From Chloroflexota bacterium (GTDB lineage Bacteria > Chloroflexota > Limnocylindria > Limnocylindrales > CSP1-4): a stretch of 24,319 nucleotides of DNA. Position numbers and translations under genes: made by a program. Position 1 is the stretch's first letter; each line of letters begins with the position of its first letter. The stretch is taken from NCBI GenBank assembly GCA_021789355.1, contig JAJYJR010000020.1:1-24319 (forward strand), given 5' to 3'. The notes beneath the pieces are model-generated. The model had not been told where the DNA came from. It worked only from the letters and a program-made list of their open reading frames with translations, and did not search any database. Below are positions 7,886-24,319 of the stretch, one piece after another.

Positions 7886-7915
7886 CCGAGGCCGCGCCTG
7901 CCGGCGCGGCCTCGG
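7886..7915. terminator. GC-rich hairpin, bidirectional terminator candidate
   Basis: CCGAGGCCGCGCC-TGCC-GGCGCGGCCTCGG is a perfect 13-bp stem with a 4-nt loop. It lies between the convergent nitrilase (ends 7872) and cassette-1 TadG-like gene (ends 7934). No U-tract follows on either strand, so efficiency is uncertain. A close relative lies after cassette 2. Confidence 0.65.
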
Positions 7916-7933: not shown

Positions 7934-8890
7934 TCAGTTGGTCAACCGGACCGAGTAGGCGCCGAAGAACTGGACGCCGTTCGTCCCGTTCCCGTTCTGG
8001 ACGACGTGCAGGTCGGACGGGTTGATCGGCGACTCGAAATAGCCACTGAGCTGCTTGGTGCTGCCCCCGACGCAGGCGGTGAGGCGAAACATCGCCCAGC
8101 CGACCATGGCGCCCGCGTCGTCGACGATGGCCACCGGGAAGTCCTGGCCGACGTAGTCGCTCAGGTCACTGAAGAGGGTCGTGTGGCTGCCCGCGTTGAG
8201 CGGCCCGATCAGCTCCTTCAGAGTCACGATCGTGCTCGTGCCGCCGCCGTTGATCAGGTCATCCACGGTGTTCGAATCGCCGTTGCAGGGGTTGCCGTGG
8301 GCGGTGCAGAAGACCGTCCAGTTGAAGGTCGAGGCGTCCTGGGGGACATCCTCGGTCCCCGTCCCGGGCTCGCCGAAGGCCCTGTTGTGGCTCTGTCCGA
8401 ACGGGTTCCCGGCCAAGGCCTTCTTGTTGAAGATGATCGGCATCGCGCCATAGGCCCCGTTGGGGACGCCCTCCTCGACCGTGGCCGTCGTGCCCACCTG
8501 CCAGACAGGTTGGCCCACGACACCGGCGAAGTAGTTGTCGTGGGGCTTGCCGAGGTCGACGGTGATCGAGGTCGAGCCATCGGCGTTGGCCGTGGTACTG
8601 ACGCTCATGGTCACGCCGCCGACGCCGATGGTGTAGCCGTTGCTGGCGGCCACACCCTGGGCAGCGGCGGTCGCGGCGTCGGACGAACTCGTGTTGGCGA
8701 AGGCGTAGCCGGCCGCCATGGCCGCGGCGTCCGCCGCATTCTGCATGTCCCGGCGCTGGTTGAAGGTGTCGCCACCGTCCACTACCAAGCCGGCCATCGC
8801 CAGGATGACGACCAGGACGAGCGTGAACAGCACGAGCGCCTGGCCGCGCTCGGACCGGCGACCAGGGGGGGTGGGTCGAAGACGGCGCAT
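7934..8890 (-). CDS. TadG-like pilus-assembly protein, cassette 1
   Basis: This 318-residue envelope protein is anchored by one N-terminal helix, GQALVLFTLVLVVILAMAGL (residues 16-35). That helix is followed by the TadG N-terminal hallmark VDGGDTFNQRRDMQNAADAAAMAAG, after which the chain is presumably outside the membrane. No von Willebrand A domain is seen, and the position corresponding to pseudopilin Glu5 is not Glu, so it is TadG-like rather than TadE-like. It is the last gene of cassette 1 and is diverged from the other two TadG-like proteins, although YFAGVVG and the ending YSVRLTN can be matched to YFAGV(A/V)G and VQLI(R/K). The start at ATG 8890 has TAGGAG 8 nt upstream. Its role is inferred from the family: it probably works with the pseudopilins encoded next to it. 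Confidence 0.8.
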   Translation of the reverse strand: MRRLRPTPPGRRSERGQALVLFTLVLVVILAMAGLVVDGGDTFNQRRDMQNAADAAAMAAGYAFANTSSSDAATAAAQGVAASNGYTIGVGGVTMSVSTTANADGSTSITVDLGKPHDNYFAGVVGQPVWQVGTTATVEEGVPNGAYGAMPIIFNKKALAGNPFGQSHNRAFGEPGTGTEDVPQDASTFNWTVFCTAHGNPCNGDSNTVDDLINGGGTSTIVTLKELIGPLNAGSHTTLFSDLSDYVGQDFPVAIVDDAGAMVGWAMFRLTACVGGSTKQLSGYFESPINPSDLHVVQNGNGTNGVQFFGAYSVRLTN

Positions 8891-8900
8891 CGGACGGCTC

Positions 8901-9368
8901 CTAGGGCAGCTGGACATGACTCGTGGAGCTGACGGTGAAGCTCTGCGGCAGGCCGACGACCTTCACCAGGAACCCCGTCATGAGGGGGATCCGGACGGTG
9001 ACCGTGACCCGGGCGTACGAGCCCGACTGGCAGTTGCCGTCGTCGAGCTGGATGTTCTGGACGTCGGTGCAGTGGATGGCGATGGTCGAGGATGGGTCGG
9101 AGAGTCCCATGACCATGCCCTTCTGGACCGCGATGGTGGACAGCGTCTGCGGGCTGTTGCCGATCACGCAGTCACCGGGATCGCAGGGGTGGACGCTCGT
9201 CACACGGGCGATCTCCCGGGCCGCCTCGGACGTGCCGTTGGAGACATAGACGACGCGCCCGAGATCCACGATCCCCATCAGGATCAGCAGGAACGGGATC
9301 AGGACGAGGGCGAACTCGACGGTCGCCTGGCCGCGGGAGTGGTGGGTGCGGGAGCCGTGGCGTAGCAT
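8901..9368 (-). CDS. TadE-like pseudopilin, cassette 1 (plain)
   Basis: This 155-residue protein has the sequence RGQATVEFALVLIPFLLILM, which combines a pseudopilin cleavage pattern G|xxxxE with the single TadE transmembrane helix. It continues DLGRVVYVSNGTSEAAREIAR, the typical amphipathic TadE extension. The mature domain has four cysteines (HPCDPGDCV, IHCTDV, GNCQSG) that could form disulfides outside the cell. The family assembles with Tad pili as minor pilins. ATG 9368 is one nt after the TGA of the PKD-bearing gene upstream, so translation is probably coupled. It is followed after 10 nt by the TadG-like gene. Confidence 0.85.
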   Translation of the reverse strand: MLRHGSRTHHSRGQATVEFALVLIPFLLILMGIVDLGRVVYVSNGTSEAAREIARVTSVHPCDPGDCVIGNSPQTLSTIAVQKGMVMGLSDPSSTIAIHCTDVQNIQLDDGNCQSGSYARVTVTVRIPLMTGFLVKVVGLPQSFTVSSTSHVQLP

Positions 9369-9369
9369 C

Positions 9370-10293
9370 TCACTTCACCTTGATGGTGACTTTGCCCGAC
9401 GTGTTCGAGCCGTAGCCGTTGGTCACCGTCAGCGTCACGTAGTACGTGTTGGGGGCCACGTAGACGTGGGGCTGCTGGGTCTGGCCCGAGCGGACGCTGC
9501 CGTCGCCGAAGTCCCAGATCCAGCTCGTGATGGCGCACGGGTTGGGCTGGGAGACACTCGGCGTGGAGGTGTCGGCAACGGTCAGCGTGACGGGCGCCTG
9601 ATCGCTGACCGGGCTGGTCGTGTAGGTGAAGCCGGCGCTCGGCGGACAGGTGAGCGGCGGGGGACTCTCGGACTCGCTGGGGCTCGCGCTGGGGGACGGC
9701 GTCGGTGTCGGCGTGGGGACCGGCGTGGCGCCTGCCGGAGGCGTCGGCAACGTCTCGATCTGCGTCGTGGAGCTGCTGCTGAAGGTCAGGTTCTGGTTGC
9801 CGCTGAAGAAGGCGGCGATGATCGGCGTCAGGAAGCTGAAATGCCCGGTCACGGTCACGGTGACCGTGTTGCCCATGCCCGTCGCGCAGTCGCCAGGATT
9901 GCAGGCCACCCGGACGTCGGCCGGCCGGACCGACACGAAGGAGCTGCTGTCGCGCGATTCCAGCAGGGTGCGACACATGACCAGGTTGGTGCCGGGGTCG
10001 CAGCTGGCGGTCGGGTAGGGCGACGGCGCGCCGGCCACGAAGAGGGTCGGCGTCTTCGACGCCTGCATCGCTCCTTCGCGGGCCGCGTTGCTCACGGCGA
10101 TGCGGGCGTAGTAGAGCCGACCCAGGTCCAGCACCGTGAGCAGCACCAGGACGAAGATCGGGGCGATCAGCGCGAACTCGACAAGCGCCTGGCCGGGACT
10201 GTGGCGGCTGTGGCGGCGGAGGCGGCGGCCCAGGCTTCTTCGGTGCGACGTCCCCCCGGTGGTGCCGGTCGGGGGCGGTGGCGGGCGATGCAC
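9370..10293 (-). CDS. TadE-like pseudopilin with C-terminal PKD domain, cassette 1
   Basis: This 307-residue protein begins with a basic, Pro-rich cytoplasmic leader, followed by GQALVEFALIAPIFVLVLL (residues 34-52). That segment has the pseudopilin motif with Glu at +5 and the TadE helix, followed by DLGRLYYARIAVSNAAREGA. The TadE ectodomain runs to about residue 180. A Pro/Thr/Ser-rich linker covers about 183-214. Residues 219-307 form a PKD domain, shown by WIWDFGDGS (258-266) and HVYVAPNTYYVTLTVTN. PKD domains are extracellular beta-sandwiches used for protein or polysaccharide contact. The start is GTG 10293 with GAGGG about 9 nt upstream; an ATG at 10298 is out of frame. It is the first gene of cassette 1. 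Confidence 0.85.
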   Translation of the reverse strand: MHRPPPPPTGTTGGTSHRRSLGRRLRRHSRHSPGQALVEFALIAPIFVLVLLTVLDLGRLYYARIAVSNAAREGAMQASKTPTLFVAGAPSPYPTASCDPGTNLVMCRTLLESRDSSSFVSVRPADVRVACNPGDCATGMGNTVTVTVTGHFSFLTPIIAAFFSGNQNLTFSSSSTTQIETLPTPPAGATPVPTPTPTPSPSASPSESESPPPLTCPPSAGFTYTTSPVSDQAPVTLTVADTSTPSVSQPNPCAITSWIWDFGDGSVRSGQTQQPHVYVAPNTYYVTLTVTNGYGSNTSGKVTIKVK

Positions 10294-10480
10294 GGCATGG
10301 TCCCTCGGATCGGGGGACGCCCGCCGATCCTCATGCCGTTGCCTTTCGGGGTTGTTTGCCGTGGTGCGTGGACGCCTGCACCGATCGAACCAGGCCGGGC
10401 CAGCCGTTGGTACCGGGGGGCTCGAATCGAAAGGCCGCGCCGGATGCCGGCGCGGCCTCGGTCCCCGAGAGGCGGAGCTG
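10294..10480. other. intercassette region 1/2
   Basis: These 187 nt hold the cassette-2 terminator-like hairpin at the right end and should contain any promoter of cassette 1. No gene or clear promoter hexamers are seen. Confidence 0.5.
10432..10458 (-). terminator. GC-rich hairpin after cassette 2
   Basis: AGGCCGCGCCGG-ATG-CCGGCGCGGCCT is a perfect 12-bp stem with a 3-nt loop, 22 nt downstream of the cassette-2 TadG-like stop. On the minus strand it is followed by TTCGATTCG, a weak T-rich stretch. It shares a 17-nt arm-plus-flank with the hairpin after cassette 1. Confidence 0.65.
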
Positions 10481-11671
10481 CTACTTGATCAGCTGCACAC
10501 CCAGCGGTCCGGGCACACCCGGCTGGGGCATGCCGACCGGTCCCTGGGTGATCGGCAGGACGAACCAGCCCTTCAGGCATCCGGTGGCGCCGTTCCCGAG
10601 CGCCAGCGGCAACCCGGGCGGGGAGTTGCAGATGACGCTGTTGTCGCCCTGGATGTAGGCGTGGTCCAGGTGGAAGCCGATCGCTCCGATCAGGTGATAG
10701 TAGGTGTTGTTGCCACTGACCGTCTGTGGCGGGTTCGGGCAGGCTGGGCCCGGGCTAACCTGGCCGACGCCGTTCTCCAGGCAATCGAAGAGCGGCAGGT
10801 AGACCGTCTTGCCGTCCCAGGAGTTCATGGCCGTGTCGACCTGGGTATTGTTGGTGTTGCCGGTTTCTGTCTGCACCCAGATCGGGAAGGTGATGACCGG
10901 GTTGTCGGGCGTCTGGATGTCGCAGGCCAGGTCGTTGACACCGCCCCCGCAGACGCTGTCCTCGGGGGCGATCGCCAGCCAGCCGACGCTGCCGGGGCCG
11001 GTCCCGCAGAGGGGCACGATCGACTCGTTGGACGCGGTCATGTCGCCGGTCACGATCGTGTAGGGTCCGCCGGGGGTCCCGATGTTGTACTTGTTGTTGT
11101 TGGCGTTGCAGGTGGAGATGCTGCTCGGGAAGGTGACCGGCAGCATCCCGCAGACCGGCGCCTCGCAGAAGCCGGTCAGCTCGCCGGCGATGGCGGTCGC
11201 CCGTGCGGACGCCGAGAACTGGTTGAATCCGGCCACCCCGGCGAAGTAGGTGCGGAACGTCTTGGAGCCATCCACCTCGACCCCATAGGCGGCCGACGGT
11301 GGCGTGACGGCGCCCAGCGACCCGACCTGGACGGGCGGGTCCAGTTGGTTGCCGGTGATGTCGGTGTACCAGGCGGTGGGCGTCGAGATGCCGTTGTTGG
11401 AGGCCGACGCGTCGACGGCGTTGAGGACGTCCTGGTCCGTCCCGGTCGGGGTGGCCTGGGTCATCACCGCCCCGATGTTCTGGGCGAGGACCACCGCTCC
11501 CGCTTCGGCTGCCGCGTCGGATGCGTTCTGGGTGCCGCGCTGTTGCGCCCAGGCGTTGCCGCCGTCGACGATCAGGGCGGTCATCGAGAGGAGCGCGACG
11601 AGGGCGAGGACCATCAGGACGAGGGTCTGGCCCTCCTGGCCGCGCCGCCGGCGACCGGCCGCTGGATTCAT
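10481..11671 (-). CDS. TadG-like pilus-assembly protein, cassette 2
   Basis: This 396-residue protein has one N-terminal helix, GQTLVLMVLALVALLSMTAL, followed by the TadG-type motif IVDGGNAWAQQRGTQNASDA. The long ectodomain has many Asn, Thr and Gly residues and several cysteines (FCEAPVC, STCNANN, CDIQTP, CLENG, CPNPP). It aligns by eye along its length with the cassette-3 copy: YFAGVAG, MLPVTF, TGNTNN, YLPLFDC, GATGCLKG and the terminal VQLIK all have counterparts there. The start at ATG 11671 has AAGGGG about 8 nt upstream; the ORF open to 11959 overlaps the previous gene and is rejected. It is the last gene of cassette 2, and its role is inferred from the family. Confidence 0.8.
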   Translation of the reverse strand: MNPAAGRRRRGQEGQTLVLMVLALVALLSMTALIVDGGNAWAQQRGTQNASDAAAEAGAVVLAQNIGAVMTQATPTGTDQDVLNAVDASASNNGISTPTAWYTDITGNQLDPPVQVGSLGAVTPPSAAYGVEVDGSKTFRTYFAGVAGFNQFSASARATAIAGELTGFCEAPVCGMLPVTFPSSISTCNANNNKYNIGTPGGPYTIVTGDMTASNESIVPLCGTGPGSVGWLAIAPEDSVCGGGVNDLACDIQTPDNPVITFPIWVQTETGNTNNTQVDTAMNSWDGKTVYLPLFDCLENGVGQVSPGPACPNPPQTVSGNNTYYHLIGAIGFHLDHAYIQGDNSVICNSPPGLPLALGNGATGCLKGWFVLPITQGPVGMPQPGVPGPLGVQLIK

Positions 11672-11730
11672 CTGGATCACCCCTTCGTGCGTCGAGATCG
11701 TGCGCGACCGTGGCCGGTGTCCGGTGACGT

Positions 11731-12216
11731 TCATGGGACCGGGCACCCGCTGGTGGAACAGACACTCTCGATCGGCTGCTGGCTCGTCGAGCTGACCGCG
11801 ATCGAGCCGATGATGCTGCCGATGATCGGCGTGATCGGACTGACGGTGTCCTTGACGGTGACGACGGCGACGCAGCCGATGTCGAGCGTGGAGCAGGTGG
11901 CGCTCAGGTTGGACGTCAGGAACTGGACGCAGACGCCGCTGCTGCCGCTGATCGGGCACGAGCTGGACGCGGTGCTGATGCCGAGTGCCGTGGCCTGGGC
12001 CGCAGCCCGGTCGACGATGTCGCTCGGGTACTGGTTGACGATCGCGGTCCGGGCCCCCTCGCGGGCGGCGTTGCTGACCGCGTTGTACGCGTAGATGTAG
12101 CGACCGAAGTCGAAGACGCCCATGAAGAGGAGCAGGATGAGCGGGATGACCAGGGCGAACTCGACCAGGGCCTGGCCGTGGGATGGCCGTCGCGACCGGA
12201 GGCGAACGATAGTCAT
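11731..12216 (-). CDS. TadE-like pseudopilin, cassette 2 (plain)
   Basis: This 161-residue protein has HGQALVEFALVIPLILLLFM with the G|xxxxE pseudopilin motif and the TadE helix, followed by FDFGRYIYAYNAVSNAAREG. The ectodomain ends ITPIIGSIIGSIAVSSTSQQ followed by a Cys-containing tail (SVCSTSGCPVP). It closely resembles the cassette-3 plain TadE (TPIIG, SxTSQ and a GR-AYN-VSNAAR core). ATG 12216 lies two nt after the stop of the PASTA-bearing gene, and the TadG-like gene follows after 59 nt. It probably forms the short minor-pilin partner in the cassette. Confidence 0.85.
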   Translation of the reverse strand: MTIVRLRSRRPSHGQALVEFALVIPLILLLFMGVFDFGRYIYAYNAVSNAAREGARTAIVNQYPSDIVDRAAAQATALGISTASSSCPISGSSGVCVQFLTSNLSATCSTLDIGCVAVVTVKDTVSPITPIIGSIIGSIAVSSTSQQPIESVCSTSGCPVP

Positions 12217-12218
12217 GG

Positions 12219-12995
12219 CTACGGCCCCACCGTCAGGGTGAACGTGTCGCAGGGTTGCGGGGTCCCGTCCCAGTCGCCGGTGACCCCGCCCGACGTTTCG
12301 GTCTTGATGGTGTAGTTGCCGGTGCCGATCGTCACGGTCAGGTCATTCGGGACGAATCCGGCGGCATTCCACTGGCCCTGGGCGCTCGTGGTGGGCTGGC
12401 CCGGCGATCCGAGGACGTGCGAGTTCATGAAGTTGGGGACCGTGCAGAGCGCGGGCGTCGAGGTCGGCGTCGGCGTGGGTGTTGGCGTCGGGGTCGGTGT
12501 GGGCGTCGGGACCGCTGCCGTCGTCACCAGGCCGGCCCGGATCGGGAAGATGGCGGTCGAGCCGAGCTGCATCGGGTTGCCCAGGACCGCGCCCATGAAG
12601 GGGGTCAGCAGCTGGAAGCCGCAGGTCAGGGTGACCTGCGCGCGGCCACCCAGGACGTCCCCGTCGGGGAAGGTCGGCGTCGGCAGGGGCGACGGCAGGG
12701 CGCAGTTGATCGCCGCCGCGTCGTTCTGGATCTGCTGGGCGTAGGTTGCCTGTGCGGCCGGGTCCGGAGTGGCTCCCCAGGCGTCGGGGTTGAGCGCCGC
12801 GAAGTTGGCGGCGATACGGGCCGAGTTCTGGAGGTCCACCCAGCCGAAGTAGAGCCGGCCCATGTCGATGGCCGTCAGCAGGATGAGGGTCAGGACCGGC
12901 AGGACCAGCGCGAACTCGACCAGGGCCTGGCCGGCACGACGCCCCCGCCGGCCTGACCGGCGAGAGCGTCGCGGCTGGGGGTGGGTAGGACGCAC
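12219..12995 (-). CDS. TadE-like pseudopilin with Thr-Pro linker and PASTA-like domain, cassette 2
   Basis: This 258-residue protein has a very basic cytoplasmic leader, then AGQALVEFALVLPVLTLILL (residues 21-40) with pseudopilin Glu, then IDMGRLYFGWVDLQNSARIA. The TadE ectodomain extends to about 160. Residues 163-179 are an uninterrupted Pro-Thr alternation. After it, CTVPNFMNSHVLGSPG (184-199) and QWNAAGFVPNDLTV begin a PASTA-like fold ending CDTFTLTVGP; the two flanking cysteines (184 and 249) could pair. PASTA domains bind peptidoglycan or muropeptides in serine/threonine kinases and penicillin-binding proteins. The start is GTG 12995, with ATGAGG upstream. It is the first gene of cassette 2. 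Confidence 0.8.
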   Translation of the reverse strand: MRPTHPQPRRSRRSGRRGRRAGQALVEFALVLPVLTLILLTAIDMGRLYFGWVDLQNSARIAANFAALNPDAWGATPDPAAQATYAQQIQNDAAAINCALPSPLPTPTFPDGDVLGGRAQVTLTCGFQLLTPFMGAVLGNPMQLGSTAIFPIRAGLVTTAAVPTPTPTPTPTPTPTPTSTPALCTVPNFMNSHVLGSPGQPTTSAQGQWNAAGFVPNDLTVTIGTGNYTIKTETSGGVTGDWDGTPQPCDTFTLTVGP

Positions 12996-13245
12996 GTGGG
13001 ACGCCTCATTGCTCAGCGCTTCAGTTCACGATTGCGGGCGGCATCTTGGGGGCCCGACCTTGCGCCCCAGATTGCAGTGGTGCGCCGGAGCAGCACCCCC
13101 GCGGCCCATGGTGGGACGAGACTGCGGCGTCGGGGATCCCGAGCGCTTTCCGACCGCCCCATCGCGCCACGGCGACGCGGCGAGTCCAAGGAACACAAAT
13201 GTCGCACCCCGGGATTCCCTCGACAGCGATGACGCCCGGACTCGG
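12996..13245. other. intercassette region 2/3
   Basis: These 250 nt contain no gene I can support. They should contain the cassette-2 promoter. Unlike cassettes 1 and 2, no strong hairpin follows the cassette-3 stop, so read-through from cassette 3 is possible. Confidence 0.5.
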
Positions 13246-14421
13246 CTAGCGAATCAGCTGGACGGATGCCACCCTGAAGCCCGCCCCCCCAGTGCCGGAC
13301 CCCTGGTCCACCACACCGCCTGTGATGTAGTCGACGAACTTCCCGACGAGACATCCGGTCTCACCGTTGCCCGTCCCGCAGACCGAGTTGCCGCCGTTGA
13401 TATAAGCCCCGTGGCCATAACTGCGGGTGACACCATCCGGTCCCACGACGGCACCACAGGCACCCGAGATCTCCGGCTGGGGTCCGCAGAAACGGAACGC
13501 CAGGACCTTGGGAATGTGGTACCAGGTGTTCGAACCATGCGGCGGATCGGTGCACGTCGTCGTGGCTGGGTCCCCGGGATCACTGCCACACTGGGCATCG
13601 AAGAGTGGGATGAAGACCACCTGGCCGTCGTAGGCACGGAGGTCCGCCTCGATCGCACTCATGTTGGTGTTGCCCGTCTGGGTGACGTATTGCCACGACG
13701 GGAGCGGGATCGGTGGGTTGTTGGGCGTCTTGATCGATTGGTCGACCTCAGCGACACCGCCCTGCCTCGGTGTCCAATCGAGCCAGCCGACATTCCCGTC
13801 GGCCGCCTTGCAGAGCGCCAGGACGAAGGCCGGGTCGTCCACACCCGGGTAGTCCCCCTTGGGGGGCGCGAGTGTCCCGTTCGGAGCACAGAGCGGCAGC
13901 GTGACAGGAAAGGCCACCGGCAGCAGAATGCTCGACGTTAGTTGGGCCCAGCCGCTGACCGCGGTGGCGGAGGTCGCCGCCGAGAGGGTCGTGATCCCCA
14001 CAACGCCGGCGAAGTAGGTGCCGAATGATTTGGTGGCATGCACCTGAACGCCCTCGGCTGTCGACGGCGGCGCTTGAGTCGGGTTGTCGCCGACTCGGAC
14101 GGACGGGCTGAGGAGTTCACCGCTCCTGGTCGTGTAGTAGGCGCTCACTGACGCCGGGTCAATCCCGTTCGCCTGCGCGGCACTATCCACTGCCTGCTTG
14201 ACGTCTCCGTCGGTCTTGCCTTGCTCAAAGAGGTTCCGCGCCAGCACGCCGGCACCCGCGTTCGCCGCGGAGTCCGTCGCATTCTGCGTTGCGCGCTGCT
14301 GGACCCACGCGTTTCCCCCGTCGATGATGAGTCCAGTCATGGCCAGTAGCGCCACCAAGAGCACGCCGGCGAGAACGAGGATCTGACCGGCCTGCCGCGG
14401 CTGCTTATCGGTGCCTCGCAT
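13246..14421 (-). CDS. TadG-like pilus-assembly protein, cassette 3
   Basis: This 391-residue protein has one N-terminal helix, GQILVLAGVLLVALLAMTGL, followed by IIDGGNAWVQQRATQNATDS, the same TadG-type hallmark as cassette 2. The ectodomain shares YFAGVVG, LLPVAFP, TGNTNMS, FIPLFDAQC, NGETGCLVGKF and the end VQLIR with the cassette-2 protein, so these two are clear paralogues. The start chosen is ATG 14421, which has GAGGA 9 nt upstream; ATG 14457 is in frame and overlaps the previous gene by 11 nt but has no ribosome binding site. The gene uses noticeably more A- and T-ending codons than the cassette-1 and -2 genes. Function is inferred from the family only. Confidence 0.8.
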   Translation of the reverse strand: MRGTDKQPRQAGQILVLAGVLLVALLAMTGLIIDGGNAWVQQRATQNATDSAANAGAGVLARNLFEQGKTDGDVKQAVDSAAQANGIDPASVSAYYTTRSGELLSPSVRVGDNPTQAPPSTAEGVQVHATKSFGTYFAGVVGITTLSAATSATAVSGWAQLTSSILLPVAFPVTLPLCAPNGTLAPPKGDYPGVDDPAFVLALCKAADGNVGWLDWTPRQGGVAEVDQSIKTPNNPPIPLPSWQYVTQTGNTNMSAIEADLRAYDGQVVFIPLFDAQCGSDPGDPATTTCTDPPHGSNTWYHIPKVLAFRFCGPQPEISGACGAVVGPDGVTRSYGHGAYINGGNSVCGTGNGETGCLVGKFVDYITGGVVDQGSGTGGAGFRVASVQLIR

Positions 14422-14446
14422 GTCTAGGATCCTCACATCACAGCGC

Positions 14447-14926
14447 TCAGCCGCCATAGGGCAGCGGGCATGCCGTCTCTCCGGAGAAGAGCGGCGGGCA
14501 GTTACGTTCGAGCGGGAGTTGACTCGTCCCCGAGATCGTGATCGGACCGACGATCGCCCCGATGATCGGCGTGAGTGCCCGGAACTGATAACGGACGGTC
14601 ACGCGGAGACTGCAGTCACCTACCGTCGGGCAACTCGTACCGTCCCATGACAGGGTTACGTCTGTCCTCGGATCTATCACCAGAGCCGTTGCCTGCCGAG
14701 CCGCGGCCACCTGGAGTTGGTAGACCGGGGGCGTGAACGATGGGTCGAGGTCCTGATTTACGATCCCAGTCCGAACAGCTGCACGAGCTGCGTTCGAGAC
14801 TTGGTTGTAGGCGACGATCGCGCGGCCGAAATCGAGCACACCCACAACGATGAGGAGAAAGACAGGGATGATCAGCGCAAATTCGACGAGGGCCTGGCCA
14901 TGATGTCGATGTCGCAGGAGATCCAT
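14447..14926 (-). CDS. TadE-like pseudopilin, cassette 3 (plain)
   Basis: This 159-residue protein has HGQALVEFALIIPVFLLIVV with the pseudopilin G|xxxxE motif, then LDFGRAIVAYNQVSNAARAA. The ectodomain carries the pair CPTVGDC and ends LTPIIGAIVGPITISGTSQ followed by a Cys-containing tail (NCPPLF, TACPLP), matching the cassette-2 counterpart in layout. ATG 14926 lies three nt after the stop of the PASTA-bearing gene. As elsewhere in the cluster, A/T third positions are more frequent here than in cassette 2. It probably acts as a minor pilin or pseudopilin. Confidence 0.85.
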   Translation of the reverse strand: MDLLRHRHHGQALVEFALIIPVFLLIVVGVLDFGRAIVAYNQVSNAARAAVRTGIVNQDLDPSFTPPVYQLQVAAARQATALVIDPRTDVTLSWDGTSCPTVGDCSLRVTVRYQFRALTPIIGAIVGPITISGTSQLPLERNCPPLFSGETACPLPYGG

Positions 14927-14929
14927 GCT

Positions 14930-15658
14930 CTAGGCCTTCGGCTTCACGATGATCTTGGAGTCGCAGGGGACTGAGATATCACTCACTTGGCTCTGATACT
15001 GGATCGTGAATCCGGGCGGTCCCTGCGAGCTGTAGTTAACCTCGGCGAAGCCCTTCGCGGTCCAGGCCGCAACCCCCTGCGTGTTCTCCGTAAGGCCGAT
15101 CAGATTCGGAACGCTGCACATTGCCGGCGGCGTCGGGGTGGGCACGGGGGTCGGGGTCGGAAGAGGGGAGGGATCCGAGCTGACGACCCCCGCCCGGACC
15201 GGGTACCGGACGGTGGCGGTGACGCGCACCGTGCCTCCGACGACTGCCTGGATCAGGGGCATCGCAGGACGGAAGTCGCACCCCAGCGTGACGGTCACTA
15301 GGCTACCAACGTCCTTGCCAGAGGAGAAACTCGGCGGCGGAGGGGCCGGGGCCCCAGCGAGTGGACAACCTGCGTCATTGCGGTCTGCGAGGACCTGAAC
15401 CGCATATTCACTGCCTGGACCGAACGAGGCACTCGGGTTCGAAGCCGCATAGGCGGCGCCAACCCGCGCGGCACTCGTCAGGTTGACCCAGCTGAAGAAG
15501 ACACGCCCGAAGTCGATCGCCGTTGCCAGAATCAGAATCAAGACGGGCAGGACCAGGGCAAACTCCACCAGGCTCTGGCCACCGGGTGGCAGGTGATGGA
15601 AACAAGGCTTCCGCGCGGAACCACGCCGGAGCCGCGGGATGGGCAGGTCCATCGGCAT
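14930..15658 (-). CDS. TadE-like pseudopilin with PASTA domain, cassette 3
   Basis: This 242-residue protein has GGQSLVEFALVLPVLILILA (residues 26-45), with pseudopilin Glu at +5, then IDFGRVFFSWVNLTSAARVG, closely matching the cassette-2 PASTA-bearing protein. The TadE ectodomain ends near 160. A Pro/Thr linker covers about 163-178. Residues 181-240 form a PASTA domain: CSVPNLIGLTENTQGVAAWT starts it and CDSKIIVKP ends it. GGAGGGAGG abuts ATG 15658; the in-frame ATG at 15652 is better spaced (6 nt) and may be the true start. It opens cassette 3, downstream of a 416-nt non-coding stretch. Confidence 0.83.
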   Translation of the reverse strand: MPMDLPIPRLRRGSARKPCFHHLPPGGQSLVEFALVLPVLILILATAIDFGRVFFSWVNLTSAARVGAAYAASNPSASFGPGSEYAVQVLADRNDAGCPLAGAPAPPPPSFSSGKDVGSLVTVTLGCDFRPAMPLIQAVVGGTVRVTATVRYPVRAGVVSSDPSPLPTPTPVPTPTPPAMCSVPNLIGLTENTQGVAAWTAKGFAEVNYSSQGPPGFTIQYQSQVSDISVPCDSKIIVKPKA

Positions 15659-16074: not shown

Positions 16075-17649
16075 TCACCCCTCCTCGGGCGGCTCCCCGG
16101 GGAGGTGGATGCTGAACGAGGCGCCCCGATCGGTCGCCGACGCATCCAGGACCAGGTCGCCGCCCATGGCCCGCACCAGTTCGCGCGACACGTAGAGACC
16201 GAGGCCGCTCCCTTCCTCTCCCGCGGGCGCGCTGCCCCGCCGGAAGCGCTCGAAGAGGTGTGCCCGCTCGGCGTTCGGGATGCCCGGCCCGCCGTCGGCG
16301 ACCGTGAGCCGCAGCTCGCGACGCCCCTCGTCCGCGGCCACCGCCACGGCGACTCGGCTACGCCCGCCGTACTTGACCGCGTTGTCGAGGAGGGCCCAGA
16401 GGACCTGGTCAAGCTGGTCGGGATCCGCCACCGCCAGCCAGCCGCGCGAGCCGTCCTCGAGCTCGAACGGGACGTCGGCCGCAGCCAGGGCCTCCCACGC
16501 TCGCCGGACGCGCGGGGCCAGGGCGATCACCTCGCTCTGGGGGCGGAGCGCTCCCGACTCGAGCCGGCTGACGGTCAGCAGCTGGCGGACCATGCGGGAG
16601 AGCCGCTCCGACTGCTCGGCGATGATGGCCAGGCGGCGATCTGGGCGCTCCCCGCCGAGCTGGCCGGCGTAGAGCCGGATGCTGGTCAGCGGGGTCTGCA
16701 GGTTGTGGCTCACGCCGCGCAGGAACTCGTCCTTGGCCGCGTCGAGCGCGACCAGCTGCTGGTTCTGGGTCTCGACCCGCGCGAACAGCTCGGCGTTCCG
16801 AAGGGCGACCCCGACCTCGCTGGCGAACAGCTCCAGCAGGTGCTGGTCGGCCGCCTCCCAGGTCGCGGTGGCCGGCAGGTGCCCGACCAGGACGCCGAGC
16901 CGTTCGTCGCCGGCCCGCAGCTCGGCCCGCACGGGTCGCGGCTCCCCAGGGACCCGTTCCTCCGACGCGACGGAACGCGGATCGCCCAGCCGCACCTCGG
17001 CGTCGATCAGCTCGAAGACGATCCTGGCGTCGGCCGCGGCCCGGCCGGCCAGCCAGGTGGTTCCGTCGCGCGGGGACCAGGCCCCGACGGCCTCGAGCAG
17101 CGCGGCGAGGGAGCGGTTGCGCCGCTCGGTGTCGGCGGCCAGGCGGTTGTGGCTCTCGGCCAGGCGAGCGAGCTCGTCGTCGCCGGGGATGTGGACGGGA
17201 CGGCTCGGCTCGCCGGCGGTGACGCGCTCCACGGCGGCGGCCATCGCCCGGATCGGCGTCGTCAGGTCCGCGGCCACGAGGTACGCGACCAGCACGCCGA
17301 GGAGGGCCGCCAGGGCGATCGCCAGGAGCAGCAGCCGGAAGACGGCCTGGTCGCCGGCCAGTCCGACCGCGACGAGGACGACCCCGAAGACGGCGAGCGG
17401 CGTGACTGCGGTCGCGATCAGGGCGATCGTCAGCCGGGCCCGGAACGAGAGCGAGAACCCGCCTCGCTCGCCCTCCGGGGTGTCGAGTTCGAAGCCTCCG
17501 ACGGCCGGTTCGGCGGTGGGCGGGTCCGATGGTCGCTCGCCCGGTCCCTCGGGGTCCCCTGCCGGCTCCGCTTGCCCACCGACGGGCGAGGAGGCCAGCG
17601 TCGCCGGCTCGTCCGCCCGGGCGCCCGGGACGCTCCCGCCGACGCTCAT
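16075..17649 (-). CDS. membrane sensor histidine kinase with HAMP and GAF domains
   Basis: This 524-residue kinase has a long, Pro/Gly/Glu-rich N-terminus (1-66) and two membrane helices: about 72-97 (LTIALIATAVTPLAVFGVVL) and 103-127. A HAMP-like segment follows (128-180, TTPIRAMAAAVERVTAG). Residues about 195-290 look like a GAF domain ending in LFASEVGVALRNAELFARVE. The HisKA domain has the phosphoacceptor His315 in GVSHNLQTPLTSIR. The ATPase domain shows the N box LLDNAVKYGG (421-429), G1 DGGPGIP, F box LFERF and G2 GSGLGLYVSRELV. There is almost no extracytoplasmic loop, so the signal is probably sensed in the membrane or by GAF. It lies 10 nt after the response regulator, its likely partner. 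Confidence 0.92.
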   Translation of the reverse strand: MSVGGSVPGARADEPATLASSPVGGQAEPAGDPEGPGERPSDPPTAEPAVGGFELDTPEGERGGFSLSFRARLTIALIATAVTPLAVFGVVLVAVGLAGDQAVFRLLLLAIALAALLGVLVAYLVAADLTTPIRAMAAAVERVTAGEPSRPVHIPGDDELARLAESHNRLAADTERRNRSLAALLEAVGAWSPRDGTTWLAGRAAADARIVFELIDAEVRLGDPRSVASEERVPGEPRPVRAELRAGDERLGVLVGHLPATATWEAADQHLLELFASEVGVALRNAELFARVETQNQQLVALDAAKDEFLRGVSHNLQTPLTSIRLYAGQLGGERPDRRLAIIAEQSERLSRMVRQLLTVSRLESGALRPQSEVIALAPRVRRAWEALAAADVPFELEDGSRGWLAVADPDQLDQVLWALLDNAVKYGGRSRVAVAVAADEGRRELRLTVADGGPGIPNAERAHLFERFRRGSAPAGEEGSGLGLYVSRELVRAMGGDLVLDASATDRGASFSIHLPGEPPEEG

Positions 17650-17659
17650 CGCCGGCCGC

Positions 17660-18376
17660 TCAGCTCTCGTCCGGTGGGCGGCCGACCAGGCGATAGCCGA
17701 CGCCGCGGACGGTCAGCAGGTGGGCTGGGCGGTTGGGGTCGACCTCGACCTTCTGCCGAAGCCGCCGCATCGTCACCCAGACGTACGAGGGGTCGGCGCC
17801 CTCGGTGTCCGCCCAGCCGCGGGCCAGGAGGGTCTCGGTGGTGACCGTCTGGCCGAGGTTGGCGGCCAGAGCGTAGAGCAGGCGCGACTCGGTGGGCGTG
17901 AGCTGGACCGGCTTGCCGGCGACGGTCGCCGCGCGGCGGTGGAGGTCCAGGACCAGGTCGGGGCCCAGGACCAGGCTGCGGCGCGGGACCTTGTCGCCGA
18001 GCCTCCTGAGGACGCGCTGGATGCGGGCCCGCAGCTCCGGGTAGTGGTAGGGCTTGGTGACGTAGTCCTCGGCGACCTCGTCGAGCAGGTCGGCCTTGCT
18101 GTCGGCGGCATCGATGGCGGAGAGGACCATGATCGGCAGGTCGGCCGTGGCCTTGATCTCGCGAGCCAGGCTCAGGCCGTCCAGGCGGGGCATCATCATG
18201 TCGAGCAGGACGAGGTCCGGCCAGGCAGTCTGCAGGCGATGGCGCGCCTCCAGGCCGTCGCGGGCCGTCGTCACCTCGAAGCCGTCGGCCCGCAGTTGCT
18301 CGGCCAGCAGGACGAGGAGGTTCGGGTCGTCGTCGACGAGGAGGATGCGCGGCGACTGGGGGGCGCCGTTCAGCAT
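17660..18376 (-). CDS. OmpR/PhoB-family response regulator
   Basis: This 238-residue protein has a receiver domain (residues 9-128) with the acidic pocket LVDDDPN (14-18), phosphoacceptor Asp59 in LLDMMMP, Ser86 in VLSAID and Lys108 in TKPYHYPEL. The C-terminal winged helix of OmpR type follows: VQLTPTESRLLYALAANLGQ, the recognition region WVTMRRLRQKVE and the wing HLLTVRGVGYRLV. The start at ATG 18376 gives a normal OmpR length; the ORF continues to 18574, but that part is translated repeats. No Shine-Dalgarno is present, and a TATACT box ends 6 nt before ATG, so the mRNA is probably leaderless. It precedes and probably receives phosphate from the adjacent kinase. Confidence 0.93.
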   Translation of the reverse strand: MLNGAPQSPRILLVDDDPNLLVLLAEQLRADGFEVTTARDGLEARHRLQTAWPDLVLLDMMMPRLDGLSLAREIKATADLPIMVLSAIDAADSKADLLDEVAEDYVTKPYHYPELRARIQRVLRRLGDKVPRRSLVLGPDLVLDLHRRAATVAGKPVQLTPTESRLLYALAANLGQTVTTETLLARGWADTEGADPSYVWVTMRRLRQKVEVDPNRPAHLLTVRGVGYRLVGRPPDES

Positions 18377-18766: not shown

Positions 18767-19687
18767 TCAGGGCGCCTTCGGATCGACGTAGCGGCAGCGG
18801 GGCGCGACGGGGCAGATCGCGCAGCGGGGCGATCGGGCGACGCAGATGGCGCGTCCGTGGCGGATCAGGTTGACGTGGGCCTCGTAGGTCCGGTCGGGCT
18901 CCAGCATCGCGAGGTACAGATCGTGCGCCTCCACTGCGGTGGCCTTCGGGGGGATGAGCCCGATCCGCTTCGAGACGCGCTCGACATGGCGATCGACCGG
19001 CATGAGGGGCTGGTCGAAGCTGAAGAGGAGGACGACGGAGGCCGTCTTGGGTCCGATCCCGCCGATCGCGGTCAGCCAGCTGCGCGCCTCGCGGGCCGGC
19101 ATCCCGCCCAGGAACTCGAGCGAGTAGCCGCCGGTCGCCTCCCGGATCGCCCGCAGCGCGGCCTGGATCCGGGGCGCCTTCTGGGGGGCCAGGCCGCCGG
19201 GCCGGATCACCTCGATCAGCTCCGGCGGCGGCGCCGCCTCCACCCGCGCCCAGTCCGGGTCGGCCGCGAGCTCCAGGCCGTGGCCGCCCCAGCCGGGTCG
19301 CGCGCCGGCGTGGTCGACGTCGCGGTCGACCGCCGCCGTTTCCCCGGGACCCGGCCGGCGAGGATAGGCGCGGCGGAGCGCCTCGAACGCCTTCTCGGCG
19401 TTCACGTCGGCGCTGTTCTGCGACAGGATCGTCAGCACGAGCTCGGAGGTCGGGTCGTGCCAGCGCTCCCAGACGGGACGGCCGTGGATGGAGGCGAGCG
19501 TCTCCATGACGAACGGCAGCAGGCCGGGTCGCGCGCGGTCGAGGCGGCGGGCCCAGGCGCGACCGGGGTCCGGCGGCCGCCGCGGGCGGACCCTCGCCGG
19601 GCGGGTCGGACGGGCGCGACCGGCCAGGGGCGGGGGGTCGACGGTGCCACCGGTGTCGCCGGCCCCGGTCCTCCGGGCCCGGCTCAC
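18767..19687 (-). CDS. endonuclease III-like DNA glycosylase (HhH-GPD, 4Fe-4S)
   Basis: This 306-residue base-excision-repair enzyme is predicted to act on oxidised or damaged pyrimidines. The helix-hairpin-helix is ITAIGGIGPKTASVV-like (205-219), with Lys214 at the catalytic lysine position. The catalytic Asp232 lies in MPVDRHVERV. The C-terminal iron-sulfur loop is complete: Cys282-x6-Cys289-x2-Cys292-x5-Cys298. The N-terminal helix LTILSQNSADVNAEKAF matches the family. It is about 90 residues longer than typical Nth: an Arg/Pro-rich N-terminus (1-60) and extra sequence at 110-150. GTG 19687 overlaps the glycerate kinase stop by 4 nt (GTGA), which supports the long form; ATG 19507 is an alternative. 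Its place in a sugar-metabolism operon is odd. Confidence 0.88.
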   Translation of the reverse strand: MSRARRTGAGDTGGTVDPPPLAGRARPTRPARVRPRRPPDPGRAWARRLDRARPGLLPFVMETLASIHGRPVWERWHDPTSELVLTILSQNSADVNAEKAFEALRRAYPRRPGPGETAAVDRDVDHAGARPGWGGHGLELAADPDWARVEAAPPPELIEVIRPGGLAPQKAPRIQAALRAIREATGGYSLEFLGGMPAREARSWLTAIGGIGPKTASVVLLFSFDQPLMPVDRHVERVSKRIGLIPPKATAVEAHDLYLAMLEPDRTYEAHVNLIRHGRAICVARSPRCAICPVAPRCRYVDPKAP

Positions 19688-20880
19688 TGCCGGCTCCCGC
19701 GAAGCTGCCAGCCCAGGGTCACGAGCCGCGCGATCCGCTCGCCGGCGCGCTCCACGAGACCTGCGCCGGAGGCCATCGCCTCCTCCAGCGAGCACGGCCC
19801 TTCGACCGCGGGGACGACGATCGCCCCCAGGCGGCCCAGCGCCTCGGCACCTTCCGGCTCCACGCCGCCGCCGACGGCAAGGCAGGGCCGGCCGGTCTCG
19901 GCCGCTCGGCGCGCGACGCCGGCCGCCGTCTTGCCGAAGGCCGTCTGGGCGTCGATCCGGCCCTCGCCGGTCAGGACCAGGTCGGCACCGGCGAGGCGGG
20001 CCGCGAACCCGACTGCCTCCATCAGCAGCTCGATGCCGGGGCGCAGCTCCAGCGCCGCGAAACGCTCGCGGAGGCAGAGCAGGCCGAACGTGGCCCCGCC
20101 GGCGGCGCCGGCGCCGGGCGTCTCCCGCGCGCTGCAACCCGTGGCGGTCTCGAGGCGGTCCGCCCAGCCGGCGAGAGCGGCGTCGAGCCGCCGGACCTGG
20201 GCCGCGGAGGCTCCCTTCTGTGGCCCGTAGGTCGCGGCCGCGCCGGACGGGCCGAGGAGCGGGTTGGAGACATCGTTGGCGATCCGCAGCCGCGTCTCCG
20301 CCAGGCGGCCGTCCAGGCCCGAGAGATCGAGCGTCGCCAGCACCTCCAGCCCGGCGCCGCCCGGTGGAATCGACCTGCCCGACCCGTCCAGGAGACGCGC
20401 GCCGAGCGCGGCCAGGAGCCCGGCCCCGCCGTCGGTCGTGGCGCTCCCGCCGAGGCCCAGGAGGACCTCGCGGATCCCCGCGTCGAGGACTGCCCGCAGG
20501 ACCTCCCCCGCGCCGGCGGACATGGCCGCGAGGGGGTCGCGCTCCCCGGGGGCGACCAGGGCCAGGCCGGAGGCGTCGGCGAACTCGACCGCGGCCCGCC
20601 GCCCGTCGCTCGAGCGGAGCCAGGTCGCCGTCGTGGGCCGGCCCAGCGGATCGTGGACCGGGACCGAGTGGCGCTCCCAGCCGCCGGCCGCCTCCAGCGC
20701 CGCCAGGGTGCCGTCGCCGCCGTCGGCCAACGGCGCGAGGTCGAGCTCATCGGCCGGCCGTGCCCGCCGCCAGCCGTCGGCCAGCGCCCGGGCAACCTCG
20801 ACCGAAGTGAGCGACCCCTTGAACGAATCGGGGGCGACCAGGACACGCAGGCGCAGGCGCCCGGCGGCCGGTTCGCTCAT
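19684..20880 (-). CDS. glycerate kinase (GlxK/GarK family)
   Basis: This 398-residue enzyme belongs to the bacterial glycerate kinase family that phosphorylates D-glycerate with ATP in the cytoplasm, usually to 2-phosphoglycerate. It starts with the family pattern VLVAPDSFKGSLTSVEVARA (residues 13-32), followed by PLADGGDGTLAAL, LGLGGSATTDGGAGLLAALG and VLTGEGRIDAQTAFGKTAAG, all strongly diagnostic. The length is normal. ATG 20880 overlaps the stop of the Usp-glycosyltransferase fusion by 4 nt (ATGA), and its own stop overlaps the endonuclease GTG. The context, next to a glucosyl-3-phosphoglycerate synthase, suggests that it recycles glycerate released from, or destined for, glucosylglycerate-type compounds. 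Which phosphoglycerate is made cannot be told from sequence. Confidence 0.92.
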   Translation of the reverse strand: MSEPAAGRLRLRVLVAPDSFKGSLTSVEVARALADGWRRARPADELDLAPLADGGDGTLAALEAAGGWERHSVPVHDPLGRPTTATWLRSSDGRRAAVEFADASGLALVAPGERDPLAAMSAGAGEVLRAVLDAGIREVLLGLGGSATTDGGAGLLAALGARLLDGSGRSIPPGGAGLEVLATLDLSGLDGRLAETRLRIANDVSNPLLGPSGAAATYGPQKGASAAQVRRLDAALAGWADRLETATGCSARETPGAGAAGGATFGLLCLRERFAALELRPGIELLMEAVGFAARLAGADLVLTGEGRIDAQTAFGKTAAGVARRAAETGRPCLAVGGGVEPEGAEALGRLGAIVVPAVEGPCSLEEAMASGAGLVERAGERIARLVTLGWQLRGSRQ

Positions 20881-22802
20881 GGCCGCGGCTGGCCGGCTGC
20901 CGCCCGACGGCGCTCGAGGTACTCCGGGATGCGGACCATCGGCGGCCGCTGCTGGTCGGCCAGCTCGATCACCTCCAGCCCCAGCCGGCCGCGGCCCGAG
21001 CGCGGCAGCTTCATCGTGGAGCCGAGCTCCGCGAAGAGGCGGCTCTTGCGTCGCTCCTCCAGCCGCTTCATCACCGCCTGGAGGATGACGAAGCTCATCC
21101 GCGAGAGCCCCTCCAGCTCCTGGTTGCGATGGACGCGTCGCTCCAGGTCCACCTGGCCGAGCGAATCCAGGCCGCCGCGCTCGGCGATGTCGATCAGGTG
21201 GCCGATCTCGACCGCGTAGCCGGTGAAGAAGGGGATCGTCTCGAGCAGCGAGCGACGACCCGCGTACTCCCCGGCCAGCGGCTGGATGAAGCCTGACAGC
21301 TCCGGGAAGAAGAGGTTGATCAGCGGCCGGGCAACCAGCTCGGTGACGCGACCGCCGCCGCCCTCCTTGAGGACGCCGCCCTCCACGATCGGGCGCTGGT
21401 AGTAACCCTTGACGTACTGCAGGCGCTGCTCCTGGAGGAGGGGTCCGACGGTCCCGTAGACCATCCGGGGATGCCAGTTGCGGACGTCGCTGTCGGCCCA
21501 GACGACGATGTCGCCGAACGTCTCGTAGAGCGATTTCCAGAGGGCCTCGCCCTTGCCCCGGAACGAGCCGTAGCGCGGCAGGACGTCGGGATGCTGGACC
21601 ACCCGCGCTCCCTCGTCCGTGGCGATCTCGCGGGTCCGGTCGCTGGAGGCCGAGTCGATCACGAGGACCTCGTCGAGCAGCGGCACCCGCTCGACCATCT
21701 CGTGGATGGCCCTGCGGACGATCGGGCCGATCGTCTCCTCCTCGTTGAGGGTCGGCAGGACGAGCGAGATCGTCAGGCCCTGCTTCTCCTTGGCCTGGAC
21801 CAGGCGCCGCAGATCGGCGAACTCGCGGTGGTGGAAGTTCGACTCGCCGAACCAGCGCTCGACCCGGGCGGGCACGGCCCGGGCGTCCTCGGCGGCGCGG
21901 TCGGCGGCGGCGAGCGTCTCGGCCCTCTGGGCGAGCTGCTCGAAGGTCGAGCGGCCGATCTGCTCGCGGGTCTTCACCACGACGACCGTCTTGCCGGCGC
22001 GGGTGGCCACCGCCTCCGGCAGGGCGCCGAAGAGGTACGTCTCCGCGCCGGAAGTGGCCGGGGTGGCCGCTGCACCCATGACCACCAGGTCGGCGTTCTC
22101 CGCCTCGCGCAGGATGGCGTTGCGGACGTTGGTCGCCTCTCGGACGAGCGGCTCAACGTGGCCGCGGACCTGCTGCCGGAGAACGGCACCGAGGGCCCGC
22201 TCCGTCTGACCGCGGACGGTGGGCGTCACGCCCGGCGGGACGAGGTGGAGCGCCACGACCCGCGCCCCGTGGCGGCGAGCGAGGGCGTCGGCGAAGCGCA
22301 GCGCCAGCTCGGCGTGCGGCCCGCCTCGGATCGGCACGAGGATGCGCCGGATCTCCGCCGTGCCGCGCTGCTTGACGACGGCGATGTCGCAGGGCGCCTC
22401 CCGGACGACCTCGTCGATGGTCGGGCTGAAGACCGGCGTCGGCCTGCCCCGTGTGGCACCGGGCTTGCCGCCCCAGCCGAAGATGATCAGGTCGGCTTCC
22501 AGCTCGGCCGCCGCCTCCTTGATCCCTTCCGCCGCCCGCCGCCCGATCCGCACGATCGGGTGGATGGCCGTCCCTTCCGGGGCGTAGTCGAGGACCCGCT
22601 GGAGCAGCCGGCGGGCCTGGCGGGCCCGGGTGGCGCCCTCGGAGAGCGGCATCCCCTCGGGCACCTCGACGATGCCGAGCGCGGTGAGGTCGCCGGTCCG
22701 GTGGTCCAGCAGGCCGGCGCCGAGCCGGATCAGCTCCTCCGCGGTGAGCGGGTTGGCGACCGGGATCAGGATGCGCGAGGGGAGCGGCGGGTGGGCGGTC
22801 AT
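20877..22802 (-). CDS. gpgS: two Usp domains fused to glucosyl-3-phosphoglycerate synthase
   Basis: This 641-residue fusion has Usp-like domain 1 at about 9-144 (SRILIPVANPLT ... ADLIIFGWGG ... PCDIAVVK), Usp domain 2 at 152-277 (RRILVPIRGGPHAELALRFA ... ADLVVMGAAAT ... KTVVVVK) and a helical linker (280-340). A GT-A glycosyltransferase follows from 344: ISLVLPTLNEEETIGPIV, VLVIDSASSDRT, GKGEAL, the metal-binding WADSD (435-439), GGGGRVTELVARPLINLFF and RVHRN (His558). These are the hallmarks of GpgS, which transfers glucose from an NDP-glucose to 3-phosphoglycerate, the first step to glucosylglycerate or methylglucose polysaccharide primers. Known GpgS proteins of about 320 residues lack Usp parts. 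ATG 22802 overlaps the upstream stop by 4 nt. The Usp part may sense a nucleotide. Confidence 0.85.
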   Translation of the reverse strand: MTAHPPLPSRILIPVANPLTAEELIRLGAGLLDHRTGDLTALGIVEVPEGMPLSEGATRARQARRLLQRVLDYAPEGTAIHPIVRIGRRAAEGIKEAAAELEADLIIFGWGGKPGATRGRPTPVFSPTIDEVVREAPCDIAVVKQRGTAEIRRILVPIRGGPHAELALRFADALARRHGARVVALHLVPPGVTPTVRGQTERALGAVLRQQVRGHVEPLVREATNVRNAILREAENADLVVMGAAATPATSGAETYLFGALPEAVATRAGKTVVVVKTREQIGRSTFEQLAQRAETLAAADRAAEDARAVPARVERWFGESNFHHREFADLRRLVQAKEKQGLTISLVLPTLNEEETIGPIVRRAIHEMVERVPLLDEVLVIDSASSDRTREIATDEGARVVQHPDVLPRYGSFRGKGEALWKSLYETFGDIVVWADSDVRNWHPRMVYGTVGPLLQEQRLQYVKGYYQRPIVEGGVLKEGGGGRVTELVARPLINLFFPELSGFIQPLAGEYAGRRSLLETIPFFTGYAVEIGHLIDIAERGGLDSLGQVDLERRVHRNQELEGLSRMSFVILQAVMKRLEERRKSRLFAELGSTMKLPRSGRGRLGLEVIELADQQRPPMVRIPEYLERRRAAAGQPRP

Positions 22803-24253: not shown

Positions 24254-24319
24254 GGCCCTCACCCTACCATCGCCGGGCGGCGCTGCGTGGCCCGGCCCGG
24301 CCCGGCGTGGCATGCCCGC
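24254..24319 (-). promoter_or_regulatory. upstream region of the glycosyltransferase operon, partial
   Basis: These 66 nt precede the first gene of the operon. TAGGGT, a TANNNT-type box, lies 7 nt before ATG 24253 and overlaps the ribosome binding site GAGGG; a leaderless start is possible, but no -35 is evident. The window ends here. Confidence 0.25.

Follow-up and report, generated by a model that had tools for sequence, protein, structure and literature searches.

What a bacterium does with three sets of minor pilins encoded side by side, on a stretch of DNA that holds no pilus machine, is the question raised by contig JAJYJR010000020.1 (assembly GCA_021789355.1) from a Chloroflexota bacterium of the order Limnocylindrales, analysed here over 24,319 nucleotides (the window). 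Nine successive minus-strand open reading frames (ORFs) at 7934-15658 form three triplets, or cassettes, each composed of a long tadE-like, a short tadE-like and a tadG-like gene, called A, B and G below. We consider it probable that the locus is the tip module of an adhesive Tad (type IVc) pilus and that its cassettes are alternative tips of one shared machine.

The order of the nine genes, which a preliminary description of this DNA had reported as repeated three times, is borne out by the ORFs, by their Pfam families and by the similarity among paralogues. With 46.7-71.7 bits, all six A and B proteins exceed the TadE cut-off (PF07811), as the three G proteins, with 31.5-36.0 bits, exceed that of Tad (PF13400). 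Identical over aligned residues for cassettes 1-2, 1-3, and 2-3 are 97/208, 65/179, and 63/166 for A; 74/131, 52/130, and 48/127 for B; and 157/333, 49/128, and 66/209 for G, in each case well beyond the similarity of shuffled sequences. The A-B junctions, described earlier as 1-3 nt, measure 3, 2, and 1 nt in cassettes 1, 2, and 3, respectively, and the B and G genes overlap or are closely spaced according to the start chosen. Of 7990 scored candidates, 585 are homologous to G1 at E ≤ 1e-5.

The clearest hint of function lies at the N-termini. A Gly|xxxxGlu site followed by a hydrophobic helix, and thus a predicted prepilin cleavage site, is found in 6/6 TadE-like proteins of the window. The three TadG-like proteins lack that Glu, exactly as had been noted; they keep the Gly, the helix and a positively charged leader, and carry Leu at the fifth residue past the Gly (position 5; Glu5 when it is Glu). 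Over 44 triplets, comprising the window's three and 41 from relatives, Glu5 occurs in 43/44 A, 44/44 B, and 0/44 G proteins, a count that is not fully blind because proteins differing at this very position served to train the profiles that separate TadE and TadG. The lone A without Glu5 (locus L021) has a mis-set start, and its corrected site does have the Glu. In 43 cassettes the Gly ahead of the cleavage site is present in 43/43 of each of A, B, and G, and the number of Cys residues is even in 41/43 A, 42/43 B, and 41/43 G. The subunit that caps known tip complexes is described as lacking Glu5 (PMC10191384), and the presence of Glu in A and B with none in G is most likely the mark of a TadG-capped filament-tip complex.

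The 41 additional triplets stem from 27 loci, obtained by scanning a single genome per species with aligned TadG homologues, so that the sample is biased toward G1-like TadG; triplets were located with profiles built from the window and with A1. Twenty-five of the loci are labelled Chloroflexi or Chloroflexota, L027 is from Caldilineales in the same phylum, and L002 is labelled Nocardioidaceae and is nearly identical to L003. Complete A-B-G triplets occur in 25/27 loci, 10 of these 25 holding two to four (range 1-4 per locus, a lower bound because many contigs end early). The preliminary description would have been undermined by a lack of co-conservation; instead, L006 holds nine genes in the window's order, regulator-kinase-PASTA-PASTA-PKD. 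The system is real and conserved.

For 43 cassettes, trees built from the first 170 residues of A, from B, and from G are concordant: the rank correlations between their distances are 0.834, 0.851, and 0.790, values that 0/2000 within-locus shuffles reach, and therefore the cassettes were inherited as units. In the joint tree, cassette 3 of the window falls in a well-supported (starred) PKD clade with L006_3, L019_2, and L011_2, and then L008_2. Cassette 1 clusters with L004, L005, L006_2, and L024; cassette 2 joins L001 and L016_1, beside L006_1 and L019_1; neither placement is starred. Cassette 3 is thus clearly an old lineage and the array no recent triplication, and an ancient split of cassettes 1 and 2 is likely. 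The earlier term "tandem triplication" is for these reasons misleading; the array as a whole is old, given these placements and the order shared with L006.

The long TadE proteins differ in what they carry at the C-terminus: A1 and A2 end in PASTA, A3 in PKD. In Pfam, the PASTA region of A1 alone has no match, and 6/24 profile members match at E ≤ 1. A profile of the 24 C-termini finds 8 PDB chains at E ≤ 1, all PASTA domains of PknB-type kinases (best 1.9e-8), and in the AlphaFold2 model of A1 (pLDDT 88.7, pTM 0.58) the fold found is that of PASTA. In the alignment the domain is joined through a Pro/Thr linker and flanked by a Cys pair. PASTA is a domain type known from cell-wall sensing and binds peptidoglycan fragments. 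The A domains share the fold and the sequence profile with the PASTA of PknB/StkP kinases and penicillin-binding proteins; unlike those, they are borne by a minor pilin, with the linker and Cys pair just described. Across 43 cassettes the A domain is PASTA in 25, PKD in 9, and absent in 9, as scored with profiles built from some of the same proteins. The domain type changes 4 times on the G tree (at least 13 in 300 shuffles) and 6 times on the B tree (at least 12 in shuffles). PASTA-type A pairs with a G of 362-434 residues and PKD-type A with a G of 292-346, except in L001 (368) and L024 (416). In L001 and L016_1, the first extracted A gene of each locus, PKD and PASTA occur together. A further cassette type, in L007, L008, L009, and L016, combines an A lacking a C-terminal domain with a giant TadG of 801-894 residues; these four giant G proteins fall in the group without an A domain.

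The order within the nine-gene unit described before stands, but its extent does not, since a response regulator and a histidine kinase upstream (16075-18376) belong to it too. Relatives of the regulator (E ≤ 1e-45) occupy 23 places in 19/21 genomes, and 19/23 lie within 6 kb of a TadE gene among the matches listed (20/23 with L055), such stretches making up about 1.3% of a genome. No TadE among the matches listed is near the places G014:C1, G011:C44, and G022:C392; the place in G022 adjoins tadC where its contig ends. Kinase relatives sit between the regulator and the first cassette in most arrays that have enough upstream sequence. Between L005 and the window the regulators are 54% identical (207 aligned residues) and the kinases 43% (294 aligned). 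The pair is convergent in L018, and the distant loci L025-L027 show no close match to it. In L010 (2057-4695) an inverted E-G pair separates the kinase from the first A-B-G cassette, and contig C90 of G014 is similar. The pair probably controls the cassettes.

No Tad machinery is present in the 24 kb window, as had been stated, but the statement holds for this window only. The relatives typically encode one TadA-TadB-TadC machine. TadE genes number 4-15 per genome in 22/22 related genomes. TadA, T2SSF, peptidase, and Flp were searched for in 21 of these, G002 being left out. One TadA-type ATPase, sorted by score and frame length, was found in 20/21 (none in G011), two strong T2SSF in 20/21 (none in G015; at least one on the TadA contig in 19), and one A24 prepilin peptidase in 20/21 (none in G022). 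Flp-like matches occur in 20/21 genomes, on the TadA contig in 17/21. These counts lend good support to the earlier suggestion of alternative minor-pilin sets that borrow a peptidase and an ATPase. Secretin was found in 0/21 relatives and in 6/14 control genomes, in keeping with a cell that lacks this channel of the outer membrane. In L005 a single strand reads rcpC-tadZ-tadA-tadB-tadC-regulator-kinase-A-B-G, unbroken, and L003 shows the same chain from tadA on, where its contig starts. Separation of machine and cassettes is nevertheless the rule, because only 2/20 TadB/C places have a TadE within 10 kb among the matches listed. Apart from this machine, 15/21 relatives carry a second, PilB-like T2SSE (frames of 505-724 aa). 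It is an orphan motor, no PilC-type T2SSF to go with it being found at E ≤ 1e-4.

In the class of G006 (177 genomes), TadE and T2SSF are both present in 119 genomes and both absent in 34, a co-occurrence that is inflated by incompleteness of metagenome-assembled genomes (MAGs). Of 131 genomes with strong T2SSF, 101 have exactly two. Exactly two T2SSF together with any TadE are found in 90 genomes: 62 of these encode three or more TadE genes (35 of them six or more), and the other 28 encode one or two.

Taken together, the cassettes would work as follows. The three prepilins of an A-B-G triplet would be cleaved by the cell's prepilin peptidase and would join in one heterotrimeric tip complex, in which TadG, lacking Glu5, would be the cap and the Glu5 of A and B would let further pilins dock. 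The tip would prime the assembly of a Flp filament by TadA-TadB-TadC, whose genes lie elsewhere, and the end of the pilus would display the PASTA or PKD domain of A together with the large head of G. The three cassettes would be alternative tips for a single machine, and the upstream kinase-regulator pair would govern the module.

Several observations weigh against this proposal, besides the training of the residue-5 profiles mentioned above. The machine of the window's own genome is deduced from the genomes behind related loci. Flp matches mostly fall under the Pfam cut-off (above it in 2/21). The arrays L007, L009, and L016 lack the regulator-kinase pair upstream, and their genomes do carry it next to another cassette. 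TadE occurs without T2SSF in 12/177 class genomes and the reverse in 12/177, which may be explained by incomplete MAGs, and three to six strong T2SSF occur in 23/131. G008 and G014 have extra divergent T2SSE genes (3 and 5 places, 73-141 bits), several of them near weak T2SSF and Tad-domain matches with short frames (G008: C3, C29, C177; G014: C13, C64, C92), perhaps a second kind of Tad-like system. Finally, Table 1 of PMC10191384 lists TadG as a component of the membrane sub-complex and not as a pilin, which leaves its pilin status unsettled in print.

That listing would suit another reading, in which TadG would serve as a scaffold in the inner membrane and the cassettes would supply alternative adaptors for the assembly platform. 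We consider this quite improbable, as each of the 43 G proteins keeps the Gly ahead of a hydrophobic helix, those of the window with positively charged leaders, and two papers from 2025 model TadG homologues at the tip (PMC12075869, PMC12607857). Less probable still, to the point of being very hard to maintain, is a stand-alone pseudopilus, or an envelope apparatus, that has nothing to do with Tad pili; a stand-alone envelope apparatus had also been offered in the preliminary description. The window without a machine and the 18/20 TadB/C places in relatives with no TadE within 10 kb among the matches listed would agree with it; the operon-like chain that joins a cassette to tadABC in L005, and in L003 as far as the contig reaches, speaks against it, as do the class-wide co-occurrence of TadE and T2SSF and the strong T2SSF of the 21 genomes, which are the TadB and TadC of the Tad machine, with extra weak ones confined to G008 and G014.

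The more serious alternative concerns exchange itself: the cassettes might all be needed together, or be non-redundant paralogues serving different steps. Its appeal comes from the PASTA-PASTA-PKD order behind the regulator and kinase, which the window and L006 still share after diverging long ago, and from Micrococcus luteus, in which every gene of both tad loci is reported to be essential for piliation (PMC6916266). Yet the number of cassettes per locus varies from 1 to 4, and 22 of the 90 genomes that have exactly two T2SSF contain just two TadE genes. Every cassette moreover encodes a complete A-B-G set, including a G of its own that lacks Glu5. We therefore judge this alternative unlikely. 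Alternative tips of one machine thus remain our preferred explanation.

Such tips have a genetic precedent. In the predatory Myxococcus, any one of four TadEFG-like tips was reported in 2025 to be enough for making pili, which are lost when all four are removed (PMC12075869); the same logic would apply here, in Chloroflexota without detectable secretin. According to the same account, the Kil Tip1-Tip4 sets (KilL/KilM/KilN) of Myxococcus xanthus, too, are several paralogous TadE/TadF/TadG-like triplets encoded in one genome and serving one Tad pilus; their C-terminal domains vary, and disulfides are predicted in them. They differ in lying in separate gene clusters and not in a tandem array, in bearing the variable domain chiefly on the TadG-like KilN instead of as a PASTA or PKD graft on the TadE-like A, in the service of three of the four tips by KilA, as against the one A24 peptidase match per genome found here in 20/21, and in the dependence of three tips on T3SS*. 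Here, a two-component pair stands at the head, and secretin was found in 0/21 genomes. The Kil tip genes are reported in that account only from Myxococcota, and the likeness drawn here is one of description. In Caulobacter, CpaJ-CpaK-CpaL is modelled as a Tad tip trimer onto which a vWA domain, proposed to be a surface sensor, is grafted (PMC12607857), there a single modelled set with the vWA on CpaL. Closer in phylogeny, tadEEG together with rcpC-tadZABC and flp is named for three species of Chloroflexales in PMC7332563, the excerpted text of which makes no mention of multiple cassettes, PASTA or PKD domains, or a two-component pair; a Tad operon is also named for Litorilinea (PMC13319060). 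PprAB, a two-component system, turns on the Flp pili of Pseudomonas aeruginosa (PMC3510237); it is likened here by description and not by sequence, and our pair adjoins the tip cassettes. What is new in the Chloroflexota version, the triplets themselves being already known, is its compact tandem array, its PASTA-bearing tips with grafted domains of known fold, and its linked two-component pair.

The PASTA domain invites the idea of a pilus tip that binds cell wall. It is possible, though somewhat doubtful, that in secretin-less Chloroflexota Tad pili the PASTA of A binds peptidoglycan or lipid II, either of neighbouring bacteria, for contact recognition and possibly for predation like that of Myxococcus, or of its own cell, to position pilus assembly at growth sites, while the kinase-regulator pair selects the tip. 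If true, this would be a wall-sensing, tip-switching pilus. Independently of this idea, the absence of Glu5 from G in 44/44 triplets offers a clean test of whether TadG caps the filament, a protein that the papers cited here file in two ways.

Table. Positions of the module's genes, domains and hairpins in the window.
Feature	Positions	Strand	Evidence or remark
Response regulator, OmpR/PhoB type (receiver, Trans_reg_C), head of module	17660..18376 (ATG taken at 18376)	-	Pfam
Histidine kinase (HAMP, HisKA, HATPase_c)	16075..17649	-	Pfam
A1, long TadE-like minor pilin, PASTA C-terminus	14930..15658	-	PF07811 52 bits
PASTA domain of A1	14933..15127	-	
B1, short TadE-like minor pilin	14447..14926	-	PF07811 61.2 bits
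G1, TadG-like, no Glu5	13246..14421 (alternative ATG 14457)	-	PF13400 34.2 bits
A2, long TadE-like minor pilin, PASTA C-terminus, GTG start	12219..12995	-	PF07811 46.7 bits
PASTA domain of A2	12222..12455	-	43.8 bits to the A3 profile, A2 itself being a profile member
B2, short TadE-like minor pilin	11731..12216	-	PF07811 71.7 bits
G2, TadG-like, no Glu5	10481..11671 (ATG 11671 most likely)	-	PF13400 31.5 bits
13-bp hairpin 3′ of cassette 2, possible terminator	10431..10459	-	fold z -2.99
A3, long TadE-like minor pilin, PKD C-terminus, GTG start	9370..10293	-	PF07811 58.7 bits, PKD_4 49 bits
PKD domain of A3	9394..9633	-	PF00801, residues 221-300
B3, short TadE-like minor pilin	8901..9368	-	PF07811 58.4 bits
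G3, short TadG-like, no Glu5	7934..8917 (ATG 8917)	-	PF13400 36 bits
13-bp hairpin 3′ of cassette 3, possible terminator, without U run	7886..7915	-	fold z -3.70

The hairpin behind cassette 2 was not called by a consensus terminator scan. The G+C content of the cluster at 7934-15658 is 0.675 against 0.735 in the remainder of the window, with a minimum of 0.615 in B1. Elsewhere in the window, a minus-strand gene at 20877-22874 fuses two Usp domains to a GT2 glycosyltransferase (Pfam) and adjoins a glycerate kinase gene (19684-20880, minus) and an ORF without a Pfam match (22799-24313, minus). By analogy, we take the genes at 19684-24313 to resemble a glycosylglycerate compatible-solute set.

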